Shown: positions 9,471 through 60,677 of the stretch, piece by piece
How the letters are laid out: every line of letters starts with the position of its first letter
Numbering within the stretch: position 1 is the first letter of the stretch
Virus record (IMG/VR): IMGVR_UViG_3300046665_000193
Coordinates: 1 to 64,000 of that record
Origin: a virus
Strand: one strand, 5' to 3'
Length of the DNA: 64,000 bases
Made by a program: the position numbers and the translations under genes
Notes under the pieces: model-generated
Told to the model about the DNA's origin: nothing
Seen by the model: the letters and a program-made list of their open reading frames with translations, nothing else
Databases searched by the model: none

Positions 9471-9679
9471 CCTCGATCTCTCGTGCATCGCAGGCGCATT
9501 GTCACCGCACCTTGTCACCACGCCACGCTAAGCCATTGATATCATTGACCATGCACTGGATGATGCATCCGCTTTGCCCATGAAATGCAGGGGGCGGGGC
9601 CTATGCGGGCAGTGCGGCGCGTCGCGTTAGTTGGCCTGTCTCTTCATATCAGTGTTTTTGTGGATGCAGCCCGCGCCCT

Positions 9680-9735
9680 CAGATGCACGTCACATGCACC
9701 TCACATGCACGTCAGATGCACGGGCAGGGCGCACA
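9680..9735. repeat. 11-bp tandem repeats
   Basis: Four units of the type RYATGCACSTC (AGATGCACGTC, ACATGCACCTC, ACATGCACGTC, AGATGCACGGG) lie head to tail, with further copies near 9773-9790. The ~11-bp phase puts them on one DNA face, as for a protein-binding array. B has a degenerate version at ~52075-52260. Confidence 0.5.
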
Positions 9736-9789
9736 AGGTGACAGGGGCAGGCCGCGCGGATTGTCACCTATAGTGCACCTCACATGCAC

Positions 9790-9930
9790 CTAGCGTGTGC
9801 CGTATGCCTTCCATTGGCCTGCAGCGTCATAGCGGCCACCGTTCGCACGGGTTGCACTGTCATTCCACGTTAGCAGGGCCATCACAGCCACTGCGATTGC
9901 ACCCAAGATGACGATTTGTTTGGCCTTCAT
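9790..9930 (-). CDS. 46-aa single-pass membrane protein on the minus strand
   Basis: Short gene starting MKAKQIVILG, with one transmembrane helix (residues ~5-21, IVILGAIAVAVMALLTW) and a polar tail ending GRYDAAGQWKAYGTR. Prophage B has an equal-length homologue at 52263-52403 with substitutions confined to the middle of the tail, which supports coding. It is the only gene on this strand in the prophage bodies and is divergent from the early promoter at 10006. A minus-strand TATAAT lies ~40-50 bases upstream. Opposite orientation to all lytic genes suggests expression in the lysogen; superinfection exclusion is a guess. Confidence 0.7.
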   Translation of the reverse strand: MKAKQIVILGAIAVAVMALLTWNDSATRANGGRYDAAGQWKAYGTR

Positions 9931-10005
9931 AACTACACTTCGACTCCAAAAGAGGTGACAAAACAGTGGATTATAAAATTGTTCTGTCTACCCATATTTT
10001 TCTTG

Positions 10006-51609: not shown

Positions 51610-52262
51610 CCGAGACCCGCCCCATAGCCTCGCTGACGCTCGGCTCCAGGGCGGAAGTAGGGCAAGGCTCTCTAGGAGGCCCGTACAGTGCCCTTTCACC
51701 GGCACCCTCACTGACCCTGCTGTGCACCTCAAAGAGCGCACCCTGAGCCACGCCTGCTGACCGTAGAGTGTCTCCGAAGTGCATGTGAGGTGGGTTGCGG
51801 ATAGTTGGTGAAAATCTCTGAAGTGGGGGCTCGAACCCTAAGGTGGCGCGTTTCCCCCGTGGCCCCTCGCGATCCACACGCATTGCAGGGCGATTGGCAC
51901 CGCACCTTGTCACCGCACCATGCTAAGCCATTGATATGACTCAGGTCGCACGGGATGATGCATCCACATTGCCCATGAAATGCAGGGGCGGGGCGCTATC
52001 GGGGCAGTGCAAGGCGTTGCGGTTCGTCCGCCTTCATCTTCATATCAGTGTATTTGCGATTGCAGCCCGCACCTTCAATGCACCTCAACAGCACGTCAGA
52101 GGCACGTTAGCGCCACGCCAGCGCAACGGCAGTGCCACCATGGGCCGCGTCTATAGTGCACGTCAGGTGCGCATGAGGTGACAGGGGCAGGGCGCTTGCA
52201 TTGTCACCACACGCCGCACCCACGTTGTCACCTCAGTGCACCTCAGATGCACGGGCAGGGCG
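51610..52262. other. Genome-end non-coding region of prophage B
   Basis: Contains the conserved stem element (51609-51718), the T-arm-like block (51790-51866), and degenerate ATGCACCTCA-type repeats (~52075-52260). No open frame is shared with A. Probably holds packaging or terminal-repeat signals of the linear phage genome. Confidence 0.45.
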
Positions 52263-52403
52263 CTATCGTGTGCCGTATGGCTTCCATTGTCCTGCAGCGT
52301 CATAGCGCCCGCCGTCACTGCGCACCTTGCCGTCATTCCACGTTAGCAGGGCCATTACAGCCACTGCGATTGCACCCAAGATAACGATTTGCTTGGCCTT
52401 CAT
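52263..52403 (-). CDS. 46-aa single-pass membrane protein on the minus strand (B)
   Basis: Same length as the A copy (9790-9930). The first 24 residues are identical, residues 25-31 differ (GKVRSDG versus SATRANG), and the end is GRYDAAGQWKPYGTR. The conservation boundaries coincide with start and stop codons. Confidence 0.7.
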   Translation of the reverse strand: MKAKQIVILGAIAVAVMALLTWNDGKVRSDGGRYDAAGQWKPYGTR

Positions 52404-52477
52404 AACTACACTTCGACTCCGAAAGCGGTGACAAAACAGTGGATTATAAAATTGTTCTGTCTACCTGCATTTTATTG

Positions 52478-57227: not shown

Positions 57228-58343
57228 TTGGCGACCTATCCTAAGGGAAACAAATTCATCACCAAGTTCATGATCGACGGGGTTCGACATACCCGGATGC
57301 ATGACACAGAAGCCGAAGGCGAAGCGTGGGAGCTGCAAAGCCGCGCGAACCTCAAACTAGGCAAAGCTATTCCAGTCGCCGAAAAGAAGATCGGTGGCAG
57401 CGACGCTGGAGCGCTCGGCAACCTTCTCCGCGAAACCGCAACCCTCCACTGGGCCAAGGGCAAGGACAGCTCAAAGTGTGAGCTGAATGCCACCACCTTC
57501 GTCAATTGGTGCGGCAAGGACATGCCCTCCCGCGACGCCTTCAAGCAGGACAACATCGACGACTTCGTCGCCTACCTCATCAACGAGCGTGAGGTATCCG
57601 GCTCGACGGTCAATCGTTACTGTTCCGCCATCCGGGTCATGGCTCAGCGGATCATCAAAAAGTCCGAAGACCTCCCCACGTTCCCAAAGTATAAAGAGAG
57701 CAGGGGCCGGTTCCGGTTCTTCTCCCATGAGGAGGAGCGGCAGATCACCGCGCTCTGGACCCTCTGGGAGCGGTACGCTGAGCTGGACTTCCTCATCTTC
57801 CTGATCGACACCGGAGCCCGCACCTACACCGAGGGACAGGCACTTAAGTGGGTCGATATCCACGCCGACCGGGCCATCTTCTGGGAGACCAAGAACGGCG
57901 GGTTCCGTGCGGTTCCGCTAAGCGAGCGGGCCAAGGCTGCTCTGGAGCGCCGCCGTAAACTAAAGGGTAACCAAGCCGGGCCGTTCAGCGACCTCGACAA
58001 GAGCCACATGCGCTGGCTCTGGGAGAAGACCCGTGGCCAGTTACCGCACCTTGAGGATGCCGTCCTGTATTGCACCCGGCACACCTACGGTTCCCGAATG
58101 GTCATGAACGGGGTGCCCCTGTCGGTCCTCAAGAAGCTGATGGGCCACTCGGACATTAAGATGACTGAGCGCTACGCCGTGTTCGAGGACAACGCCGCCT
58201 TCGCCGCAGCGCTCACCGCCCTCAACAGCAACGGCTTTGCCCCCAAGGCCGCGCCCTTGTCGGTCGTGGTCGATAACGAACCGGCACCGGGTCCCATGGA
58301 GGTTCTGGCCAAGAACCTTGAACGGGCAGGGCAAGTGCAGTAG
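57228..58343 (+). CDS. int: Tyrosine-recombinase integrase (B)
   Basis: 371 aa, TTG start (A uses ATG) after AAGAGGAG. About 95% identical to the A integrase with all catalytic residues in place (GAR, RHTYGSR, GHSD, TERYA). The TTG may keep synthesis low. Confidence 0.95.
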   Translation: MATYPKGNKFITKFMIDGVRHTRMHDTEAEGEAWELQSRANLKLGKAIPVAEKKIGGSDAGALGNLLRETATLHWAKGKDSSKCELNATTFVNWCGKDMPSRDAFKQDNIDDFVAYLINEREVSGSTVNRYCSAIRVMAQRIIKKSEDLPTFPKYKESRGRFRFFSHEEERQITALWTLWERYAELDFLIFLIDTGARTYTEGQALKWVDIHADRAIFWETKNGGFRAVPLSERAKAALERRRKLKGNQAGPFSDLDKSHMRWLWEKTRGQLPHLEDAVLYCTRHTYGSRMVMNGVPLSVLKKLMGHSDIKMTERYAVFEDNAAFAAALTALNSNGFAPKAAPLSVVVDNEPAPGPMEVLAKNLERAGQVQ

Positions 58344-58376
58344 ACACCCCGGCCATGTCGTTCGGTCGCGAGACCG

Positions 58377-58427
58377 GGTGACAATGCGGGTGACAAAGGG
58401 GTGCGAAATGGCACCTCTTTGGTGACA
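58377..58427 (+). other. Integrase arm sites (P arm, B)
   Basis: GGTGACA at 58377, 58389 and 58421, GGTGCGA at 58400, inverted TGGCACC at 58409. Same order as upstream of the first tRNA. Confidence 0.6.
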
Positions 58428-58429
58428 AT

Positions 58430-58514
58430 GCGGGCGTGGCGGAATTGGTAGACGCAGCGGCTTTAGGTGCCGCCGCCGTAAGGTTTAGGGGTTCGAGTCC
58501 CTTCGCCCGCACCA
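58430..58514 (+). tRNA. tRNA-Leu (UAG), phage-borne (B)
   Basis: 85 nt; differs from the A copy at two D-arm positions and in the variable arm (CCGTAAGG versus CCGAAGGG). Acceptor, anticodon loop TTTAGGT, T-arm and CCA are intact. Confidence 0.92.
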
Positions 58515-58519
58515 TCGAA

Positions 58520-58535
58520 GCCACGGGATTTAGGT
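58520..58535. other. att core at the right end of prophage B
   Basis: GCCACGGGATTTAGGT. A direct repeat of it, GCCACGAGATTTAGGT, lies at 59805-59820; the two bracket the 1.28-kb segment. Confidence 0.55.
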
Positions 58536-58664
58536 GTTGGTGCCAAATCCTCTAGCTTTCGCAGGTGATACGCCCCGTTTCGCCGACTTCCCAAGTTGCT
58601 TCAATCACATCAGTAGATCAGTAATCTACTGCGCTTGGCAGGTTATTTTCCTGACAGGTCAAAA

Positions 58665-58686
58665 GGTGACAATAAGAGGTGACAAA
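58665..58686 (+). other. P'-like arm sites of the small segment
   Basis: GGTGACAAT and GGTGACAAA, 13 bases apart, preceded by a perfect CAGTAGAT/ATCTACTG inverted repeat at ~58611-58630. Confidence 0.45.
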
Positions 58687-58687
58687 T

Positions 58688-59514
58688 TCACCTATCGACG
58701 AGCGCTTCTGGCTGATTTGTGGATTTGGCCAGTCGCTTCAACTCATTGATCGTTTCGATTACTCGATCCATCGGCTCGACGACTGTGTATCCTGAGTTGT
58801 GTCGTCGTTGACTTACCTCTTGACGATCAACTGAGCTATACAGCTTCTCGACAAATCCGATATTTCTGATTGCGACTCCGACGGAGTGTCGATCCTCGGC
58901 CCTCAGCACCAAGCCACCACTGTTACCGGGATAGGTTGGACAATCGATGATGATCTTGTTGCTCGGCGGCTTGCCAGCTACGATACCCGAGCGCAGCAGC
59001 GGGTATCCTCGGTCAAGCGCATCTTCCTTTTCAGCGAGTGAGGTTGGGTAGCCCATCATGAAGATCGGCTCCCCCGGTATCACCGACGCATACAAGGCGG
59101 TCATGCTAAGAGGCGTACCTTGCAGGTATGTCGCCGGGTCGTAACCAATTTGAGTGACGCCTTCGACGAGGTCCATTCGATACCGATTAACCCCCGCATC
59201 AGGCTGAGGTCTCATCGTTCCAATTCGACAGACGGCCACATCGGTGAGACCATCGGGATGCCTGCAAAAATTACCGTCTGCAAAAAGCCTCGGACTGTCG
59301 AGCGAATGCTTGACTGTCTTAGTGAGCGTTACACTATCGAGTGCGGTGATTATCACCGGATCAGTGAAGAGTTCTAATTTGTTTTTTAACAGAACATGCG
59401 CTGCCGAAACGAGATAGACGTTCTCGTTGTCGTAGAGATGGACCCGCTTCCTGTTGTGCCTTTTATCTCGATGAGGGCTGGGTAAGATAAGTAGTTGAGG
59501 TCCCTATTCGGCAC
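58688..59514 (-). pseudogene. Trypsin-like serine protease, frameshifted
   Basis: Minus-strand gene with GTG start 17 bases after the tRNA and GGGGG 8 bases upstream of it. The first frame reads YPALIEIKGTTGSGSI. After a one-base shift near 59431-59450 it continues YDNENVYLVSAAHVLL (catalytic His) to LTDVAVCRIG (Asp) and IDCPTYPGNSGGLVLR (catalytic Ser). The triad is complete across the two frames. Either a disabled gene or a sequencing error. Without the shift the downstream frame has no start before GTG/ATG near 59356, which would lose the His. No signal peptide is visible. Confidence 0.65.
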
Positions 59515-59530
59515 GAGTACGCCCCCAAAA

Positions 59531-59615
59531 TGGTGCCCGGCGAGGGACTCGAACCCCCACACCTTTCAGCGACGGTACCTAAAACCGTTGCGTCTACCAA
59601 TTCCGCCAGCCGGGC
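59531..59615 (-). tRNA. tRNA-Leu (UAG) of the small segment
   Basis: 85 nt with acceptor GCCCGGC/GCCGGGC, anticodon stem ACGGT/ACCGT, loop TTTAGGT, T-arm GGGGGTTCGAGTCCC and CCA. The sequence differs from the two phage tRNAs in all stems, so it has another origin, but it has the same anticodon and loop. Confidence 0.92.
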
Positions 59616-59813
59616 ACGGGGCATTCCGATACACAATTGAGCGGTGGATGTCTCGACATAATCCACTGTTCGTCGTATTGGCGTCACCGGGTGACAAATC
59701 AGGTGTGAAATGGGTGACATTTTGCACCTGATGATGACAGTGCAGGTATCGCCGATCTAAATAAGCTCAGCGATTACGGGAGCTTAGGCGTCTCACGGTT
59801 TTGCGCCACGAGA
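59616..59813. other. P-like arm region of the small segment
   Basis: GGTGACAAA at 59690, GGTGTGAAAT at 59702, GGTGACATT at 59713 and inverted TTGCACCT at 59722-59729 reproduce the order of sites in the phage P arms (GGTGACA, GGTGCCAAAT, inverted GGCACC, GGTGACA). No coding frame. Confidence 0.5.
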
Positions 59814-59825
59814 TTTAGGTTCCCG
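59805..59825. other. att core at the left end of prophage C
   Basis: GCCACGAGATTTAGGTTCCC plus G. Similarity with the left end of prophage B starts here. Confidence 0.6.
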
Positions 59826-59830
59826 CGTCA

Positions 59831-59859
59831 CTTATACTACGATTAGCAACTACATACTA
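59831..59859 (+). promoter_or_regulatory. Promoter-like element abutting the terminator (C)
   Basis: CTTATA, 17-base spacer CTACGATTAGCAACTAC, ATACTA. Conserved with 15671. Confidence 0.35.
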
Positions 59860-59869
59860 ACATATTGAG

Positions 59870-59900
59870 GGCAGTGCAGAAATGCGCTGCCTTTTCTTTT
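59870..59900 (+). terminator. Rho-independent terminator (C)
   Basis: Stem GGCAGTGC/GCGCTGCC, loop AGAAAT, CTTTTCTTTT. Paired changes relative to 15710 preserve the stem. Confidence 0.85.
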
Positions 59901-59905
59901 GCGTG

Positions 59906-59934
59906 CTCATACTACGATAAGAAGGTGGATATGG
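59906..59934 (+). promoter_or_regulatory. Early promoter-like element before the ligase-polymerase operon (C)
   Basis: CTCATA, 17-base spacer CTACGATAAGAAGGTGG, ATATGG; followed by the four P' arm sites at 59934-59977. Confidence 0.5.
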
Positions 59935-59977
59935 GTGACACCCGCTTTGGTGACAGTGGAGCGGTGACAAAGTGACA
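59934..59977 (+). other. Integrase arm sites (P' arm, C)
   Basis: Same four GGTGACA-type repeats and spacing as 15774-15817; sequence is identical across the block. Confidence 0.6.
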
Positions 59978-59990
59978 ATCAGGAGAACAC

Positions 59991-60677
59991 ATGCAGAACT
60001 ACACAAAGGCCCGCGAGTGGAACGGCAAGGCGCTTAAGGGCGCGTGGGAATGCACCATCAAGATCGATGGCTGGCGTCTGCTTTGGAACGGTAACGAATG
60101 GGTGAGCAGGGCCAACAAGCCCATTCCGAACATCCCGCCGTGGCTCCCCGGCATGGCCACCGACTTCGAAGTGTTCCTCGGATCGCTCGCGCTGACCTCT
60201 CGCGCCTGCAAGACGAAGCACCTCAAGCCCGACACGCCGCGCGTCAAATACGACCACCTCTACAGTCTGGTTCCGCTGGACCCTCGGCTGGTCATGCCCG
60301 GCCTGATCGACCCGACCGCTGAGCAAATCGCCGAGCTGCTGGCTGACGTGAACCGGCGCGGGTTCGAGGGGCTGGTGCTCCGACAAGGCGACCGCTGGAT
60401 CAAAGTGAAGCCAGCCCAGACCCACGATGTGCTGATCACCGGCTACGGCGCTGGCGAGGGTAAGCATGAGGGTCGGCTCGGCTACCTGACCTCCGCGTTC
60501 GGCGACGTGGGCACCGGCTTCACCGACGAAGAGCGCGAAGAGCTGTGGGCCGAGGCGCTGGCCGGGACGCTGGTTGGCCAGACCATGGAGGTCGGCTGCA
60601 TGCACCTGACCGAGGACGGCCAGTTCCGACACCCGCGCTTTGAGCGCATCCGCCATGACAAAATCGCAGAGCGATGA
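59991..60677 (+). CDS. ATP-dependent DNA ligase
   Basis: 228 aa. Nucleotidyl-transferase motif TIKIDGWRL (Lys20-ish attacks ATP), TDFEVFLGSL, FEGLVLRQGDRWIKVKP (motifs IV and V), and an OB-fold part (HEGRLGYLTSAFGDVGTGFT). AGGAG 6 bases before ATG. Much smaller than T7 ligase (359 aa) because the N-terminal region is minimal. Located before RNA polymerase, where B has an unrelated gene. Seals nicks during phage replication. Confidence 0.88.
   Translation: MQNYTKAREWNGKALKGAWECTIKIDGWRLLWNGNEWVSRANKPIPNIPPWLPGMATDFEVFLGSLALTSRACKTKHLKPDTPRVKYDHLYSLVPLDPRLVMPGLIDPTAEQIAELLADVNRRGFEGLVLRQGDRWIKVKPAQTHDVLITGYGAGEGKHEGRLGYLTSAFGDVGTGFTDEEREELWAEALAGTLVGQTMEVGCMHLTEDGQFRHPRFERIRHDKIAER

Follow-up and report, generated by a model that had tools for sequence, protein, structure and literature searches.

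Tycheposons integrate at tRNA genes, carry tRNA sequence together with cargo, encode a tyrosine recombinase and measure several kb or more. Small elements that exploit a helper phage include PICI, P4, PLE and PICMI, with a size of 6,110 bp for PICMI115 (PMC10803314). Among mycobacteriophages, tRNA-dependent lysogeny has been described (Guerrero-Bustamante and Hatfull 2024, PMC10865867). A CIME is by definition an element whose genes for integration and transfer have been lost (PMC5704250), and the ssrA islands of Dehalococcoides occupy a single RNA-gene site, 15 of them without an integration module and some in tandem (PMC3146451). Each of these is, separately, already known: att-bounded islands lacking an integrase, tRNA-dependent lysogeny, and small satellites that encode an integrase. 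Their combination in one integrase-less, att-bounded element of 0.77-1.3 kb with a replacement tRNA was not found in the open-licence literature searched, where some queries were swamped by unrelated papers.

Here we describe such a segment, located at positions 58,536-59,820 of the window, by which we mean the whole analysed stretch of 64,000 nucleotides, taken from the start of an IMG/VR virus record of 78,980 bp. A second copy was found in Tardiphaga sp. P9-11. With tRNA-dependent lysogeny as described for mycobacteriophages, the element shares a short core, TTTAGGT, and a host tRNA that is not rebuilt at attL or attR, the Tardiphaga halves being separated by the element. However, whole temperate phages with their own integrase are involved there, whereas the element measures 0.77-1.3 kb and has none. 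Like a CIME, as characterized in the corresponding account (PMC5704250), it is bounded by att sites, lacks integration and transfer genes and adjoins an element with a matching integrase. It differs from CIMEs in its dedicated replacement tRNA and in the cargo swapped between conserved ends, and neither copy holds a conjugation gene. Furthermore, only the window copy adjoins phage DNA, while the Tardiphaga copy stands alone in a genome in which no related integrase was found. The ssrA islands depend on a serine-recombinase system, and the portion of their description available to us makes no mention of a replacement RNA gene or phage arm sites (PMC3146451). In contrast to PICMI satellites, which have their own integrase, the element has no integrase gene, and PICMI115 is about 5-8 times its size. 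From an integron gene cassette, with its attC hairpin site and integron integrase, it would differ in having a phage-like att structure with arm sites. The nearest architectures are phages or islands in which an inverted tRNA-Leu precedes the integrase.

The segment forms a discrete unit of 1,285 bp that sits at a phage attP (Table 1). Judged by comparison with a related phage, it is an inserted unit: the phage contig G001 (locus L005; IMGVR_UViG_3300046691_000054) has the same junction with the segment absent, matching window positions 58,300-58,535 at 236 of 236 bp and continuing directly with window positions 59,805-60,000 (99.5% of 196 bp). The heptamer TTTAGGT corresponds to the anticodon loop of the host tRNA-Leu(UAG), the gene that is split by the Tardiphaga copy. 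The original prediction had placed the segment between the copies of a 16-bp direct repeat ending in TTTAGGT. Its coordinates are correct and the 16-mers GCCACGGGATTTAGGT (58,520) and GCCACGAGATTTAGGT (59,805) are identical at 15 of 16 positions, but the crossover core is shorter, about 7-9 bp ((GA)TTTAGGT), because host tRNA sequence lies ahead of the left core in the Tardiphaga copy.

Table 1. Features of the segment and of the adjoining phage DNA (window positions).
Feature	Position	Strand	Remarks
Tyrosine integrase of adjacent phage	57,228-58,343	+	PF00589 E=8.7e-13; presumed trans-acting recombinase
Phage P arm sites	58,377-58,427	+	sites 58,377; 58,389; 58,421
Phage-borne replacement tRNA-Leu(UAG)	58,430-58,514	+	
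Left core TTTAGGT	58,529-58,535	+	crossover site; joins phage B P side to element P' end
Element P' end	58,536-58,690	+	two GGTGACA arm sites at 58,665 and 58,678
Trypsin-like serine protease gene, cargo	58,688-59,451	-	frame broken near 59,440-59,452; His/Asp/Ser motifs recognisable
tRNA-Leu(UAG), inverted	59,531-59,615	-	85/85 identical to the tRNA of the Tardiphaga element
Element P end	59,616-59,813	+	arm sites 59,690, 59,713; degenerate sites 59,702, 59,733; inverted repeat 59,698-59,732
Right core TTTAGGT	59,814-59,820	+	
Phage C P' arm sites	59,934-59,969	+	sites 59,934; 59,949; 59,963

The window contains DNA of T7-like phages (single-subunit RNA polymerase, tyrosine integrase), designated A, B and C along its length. 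Behind both integrase genes of the window come P arm sites (GGTGACA), then a complete tRNA-Leu(UAG) and the core TTTAGGT; at the A|B junction, P' arm sites stand after the core as well. The segment is flanked by the P side of phage B on the left and by the P' side of phage C on the right. Outside the segment, nearly the whole 78,980-bp record matches two phage contigs in stretches of at least 300 bp, so that no host DNA was recognised in it. Window positions 1-33,623 are closest to contig G002 (about 99%) and positions 33,626-58,535 to G001; phage C, from 59,805 to the end of the record, is closest to G001 throughout (about 99.3%). Where the end of C overlaps the start of the G001-like part of B, the two agree over about 365 bp at only 95.6% and are therefore not the same strain. 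The switch near 33.6 kb points either to a recombinant phage or to a switch in the assembly. At the switch point, C, G001 and G002 each contain a variable stretch of roughly 100 bp, tRNA-like in the case of C, which B lacks.

A chromosomal array of three prophages was not established, given the turn of 'prophage B' from G002-like to G001-like sequence and the lack of recognised host DNA. The record may represent a tandem array, a phage genome with the element in it, or an assembly in which strains are mixed. G001 and G002 each have identical ends of 127 bp, as in circular assemblies. Phage B and the element together measure 44,160 bp. For comparison, the circular phage contigs have lengths of 43.6 and 44.1 kb, and among eight related phage contigs the six longer ones range from 42.0 to 45.4 kb, some including host DNA. 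The boundaries of the element do not depend on the setting of the record, since the Tardiphaga copy has the same boundaries.

This second member was found by its core and P' arms. It lies in Tardiphaga sp. P9-11 (NZ_NPKQ01000002.1, locus L028), measures 768 bp from core to core and splits the host tRNA-Leu(UAG) gene exactly at TTTAGGT: the 5' half of the tRNA is followed by the core, the element, the second core and the 3' half. The neighbouring genes are presumably those for trigger factor and ClpP. Between both copies, the right-hand 291 bp, comprising the inverted tRNA-Leu(UAG), the P arms and the core, are 98.97% identical, and the left P' end is 69.6% identical over 161 bp. The middles are unrelated, with the protease in the window and an 89-aa protein in Tardiphaga (phrog_6053, unknown function, E=4.3e-13); on the cargo side, the right-hand homology ends at the 3' end of the tRNA. 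A search of 18 genomes of the genus gave a match in 17, including P9-11 itself, and the locus was intact in all 12 of the other genomes inspected. The Tardiphaga copy thus looks acquired. P-end DNA of the element was detected in one of 391 genomes of the family and one of 397 of the order, both times the same Tardiphaga genome, and a weak relative of the protease in one of 381 family genomes. In these genomes, protease and tRNA did not appear as ordinary syntenic host genes, which agrees with the original prediction.

We compared the integrase arm sites with those of the five phages, out of eight loci, that have a readable attP. On the P' side, the GGTGACA sites of the element lie at +136 and +149 from the core, and those of the five phages at +134/135 and +147-149. 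Three of the five also have a site at +119/120; the +120 site is absent from the P' half of the element as well as from phages L009 and L010. On the P side, the element has GGTGACA at 59,690 and 59,713 (-124 and -101); in each of the five phages one site is found at -106/-108, together with one or two others in the range from -136 to -152. Every site of the element has the orientation seen in the phages. The predicted phage-like order (P' left, P right) is thus borne out, and the P' spacing is that of the phages, but the P spacing is shifted. Two degenerate sites accompany the P sites: GGTGTGA at 59,702, 12 bp from the first site as in phage B, and GATGACA at 59,733, the Tardiphaga counterpart of which is GGTGACA. 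If both are counted, the 12-bp and 43/44-bp spacings of the P block match those of the phage. The P block itself aligns to the phage P block with 73% identity over 49 nt, and to that of L006 with 80% over 44 bp. In 20,000 dinucleotide shuffles of the segment, GGTGACA occurred 0.083 times on average and four sites were never reached (0/20,000). On the evidence of these motifs, the element has both halves of an attP.

GGTGACA also forms clusters, in both orientations, at window positions 9,500-9,960 and 51,908-52,433, distant from att in both phages, which are possibly sites of another regulator. In four genomes (L125, L126, L128 and L129), related integrases are closely followed by three GGTGACA arm sites, next to tRNA-Leu(UAA) or tRNA-Cys; here the arm motif is kept while the target of the integrase seems to change.

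How the phages use tRNA-Leu is illustrated by two prophage contigs, L015 and L020, in which the 5' half of the host tRNA-Leu leads into TTTAGGT and then into phage P' sequence. Their integrases are 45% (L015) and 78% (L020) identical to the phage integrase, and both prophages occupy this same host tRNA, at a syntenic locus. Their host flanks match the tRNA-Leu locus of the genus Tardiphaga at 67-72% over most stretches of about 850 bp, rising to 78-90% over about 116 bp beside the tRNA at most loci compared. Based on these junctions and flanks, attB is the anticodon loop and the host gene is split. A tRNA-Leu(UAG) is present in both elements and in five of the eight phage loci, and each phage with a readable attP brings a whole copy; none was found in L008, L011 and L012, loci that end less than 1 kb past the integrase match. 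In some genomes of the genus (L108, L110 and L114), the tRNA-Leu(UAG) at the locus has an anticodon stem of the phage type (GCGGC TTTAGGT GCCGC) and not of the CTGGA/TCCAG type, perhaps the trace of an earlier replacement by a phage-borne tRNA.

In the draft genome of Tardiphaga P9-11 we found two tRNA-Leu(UAG) signatures, the split host gene and the tRNA of the element, and the latter is therefore the only complete tRNA-Leu(UAG) found there. The same signature detected tRNA-Leu(UAG) genes in 16 of 18 genomes of the genus: a single gene in 13, two genes in G198, G239 and P9-11, and none in two, with one off-target signature match each in G178 and G198. The role of the element's tRNA, missed in the original prediction, would be to replace the tRNA gene destroyed by insertion. 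We infer that it is expressed and serves as this replacement, and its standing as the sole complete signature in the genome suggests that it is required for survival of the lysogen.

Besides the protease, there is no integrase-sized frame in the 1,285 bp of the segment, and the longest internal frame in the 768 bp of the Tardiphaga copy has 89 aa. The phage integrase had no match in Tardiphaga P9-11 at E<=1e-3, a search in which four candidates were scored and an empty result alone shows little. An integrase alignment at 1e-30 gave no match in this genome either, and matched 8 of 381 genomes of the family. P9-11 has nine PF00589 matches, two of them on the contig of the element, about 70 and about 169 kb off.

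The segment had been described as carrying only a tRNA-Leu and a trypsin-like protease. Both are present, but the frame of the protease is broken. The listed frame, 58,688-59,356 (-), scores 26.3 bits against PF13365 (Trypsin_2), for which the cutoff is 27.6. In frame with the listed GTG, and upstream of it, is VYLVSAAHV, the segment of the catalytic His; no ATG, GTG or TTG precedes this segment, and the likely N-terminus is readable in another frame. With its start region split between frames, the window copy is probably inactive, or the contig contains an error in this region. With a 271-aa protein encoded in genome G151, the protease shares 28% identity over 266 aa, and it weakly matches the candidate defence family PDC-S45 (PADLOC, E=1.5e-7), a similarity suggesting that the cargo could affect phage infection. 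No relatives were found in viral contigs (seven pattern matches, none confirmed), phages, plasmids or solved structures, and the N-terminal peptide had no match in phages.

Only two members of the element were found, despite the use of one genome for each of 84,980 species and of IMG/VR. The pattern of core and P' arms yielded 31 loci in the genome collection, of which only L028 matched the segment ends (blastn) beyond a 20-bp stretch; flanks were read for 7 of the 31. Among viral sequences the same pattern gave eight loci, five of them in contigs of this phage family and three judged from their flanks to be chance. P-end patterns gave 0 loci in one case and 21 in another, of which none matched the segment ends (blastn, E<=1). 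The P'-end pattern gave three loci whose flanks point to chance, and the tRNA anticodon-arm pattern gave one, an integrase-bearing prophage. An interrupted-tRNA pattern (next base not T) was detected in one of 391 family genomes, again Tardiphaga. With tRNA plus P end as query, 102 plasmid records matched, none over 80% of the query, and the best 10 of the 102 covered the tRNA part only; in phages there was no match. The integrase alignment identified nine viral loci, eight on contigs already known and one weak (27%, L086).

Taken together, we consider it probable that the segment is an integrase-less mobile mini-element that uses the integrase of tRNA-Leu-targeting T7-like phages in trans and carries a replacement tRNA. 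The original idea, a minimal satellite served in trans by a phage integrase, is the best fit, as another element sharing these ends but differing in cargo sits in a host tRNA-Leu; both trans action and mobility are inferred. The element consists of the left core, the P' arms (about 155 bp), a single cargo gene, the inverted tRNA-Leu(UAG), the P arms and the right core, and would serve as a full attP substrate. Its arm sites would be bound in trans by the tyrosine integrase of the tRNA-Leu-targeting T7-like phages, or by a close relative of this enzyme, and its TTTAGGT recombined either with the anticodon loop of the tRNA-Leu(UAG) of the host or with the attP of the phage itself. On entering the host, the element would split an essential tRNA gene, a split that is seen in Tardiphaga, and its tRNA would supply the replacement. 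Insertion beside or into phage DNA would let the element travel as part of the phage genome, and its small size and lack of packaging genes would then be explained. It could conceivably also be a 'satellite' in the sense of being packaged by the phage.

The element is probably mobile, but several observations speak against this reading. The window copy shows two losses: its protease frame is broken, and its third P site reads GATGACA. Only two members are known, the P sites lie closer to the core than in the phages, the P' half is without the +120 site (as are two of the phages), and the Tardiphaga genome is a draft. The surrounding phage sequences form a strain mosaic, which leaves the exact genomic setting of the element uncertain.

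The same two losses fit a deletion relic, which we regard as unlikely, if still the most serious rival. An integrase-bearing phage or island would have lost nearly everything, and the remaining att-bounded scrap would be immobile or leave with a neighbouring phage in a CIME-like manner; CIMEs are a described outcome of such decay (PMC5704250). A comparable arrangement is seen in prophage L133 (11,668-12,785) of an isolate, where an inverted tRNA-Leu(UAG), 92-93% identical to that of the element, stands directly before a tyrosine integrase (27% identity); this order is a likely source architecture of the element's right end. In L132 (3,639-4,952, oriented), an inverted complete tRNA-Leu(UAG) also precedes an integrase, with TTTAGGT and the 3' half of the host tRNA behind, perhaps another tRNA replacement with a different integrase. 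Since both show this order, the element may plausibly have arisen by losing an integrase that once stood between its tRNA and its P arms. However, both copies share the integrase-less stretch from tRNA to core at 99%, so any such loss predates the ancestor common to them, and movement and the exchange of cargo would have followed it. Moreover, the copies occupy different settings and hold different cargo between precise modular borders common to both, P and P' arms are kept in each, and the Tardiphaga copy looks acquired at a site that is empty in the 12 other genomes inspected. A decayed origin of the element is likely enough; as to its present state, we favour the mobile mini-element.

An assembly artefact joining unrelated pieces seems very improbable: the contig is metagenomic and phage B changes its closest relative near 33.6 kb, but the two exact ends and the right-hand 291 bp recur in an independent isolate genome. 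Ordinary host chromosome between two phages at neighbouring attB sites would account for a tRNA-Leu and a bacterial-type protease with phage DNA on both sides, but can practically be dismissed, as no host tRNA half adjoins the phage cores here, unlike at the attL of L015, L020 and L028, arm sites stand at both ends, the single occurrence of P-end DNA among 391 family genomes is itself an insertion, and none of the searches showed the 1.28 kb as continuous host sequence.

Single-gene cassettes that have a complete phage attP, are mobilised wholly by a phage integrase, carry a replacement tRNA, swap their cargo and ride in the genome of a helper phage may represent a new class, a proposal we make tentatively and with slightly more doubt than confidence. 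Prophage and island finders probably overlook elements of such a length. Further members could be sought as a split tRNA gene with a full-length copy a few hundred bases off and no integrase between. If mobile, the element would be near the smallest possible site-specific mobile element, consisting of two att arms, one cargo gene and a tRNA that pays for the insertion. Phage attP would then be parasitised as transposon ends are by miniature elements, and replacement tRNAs would be a general entry price for essential tRNA genes.
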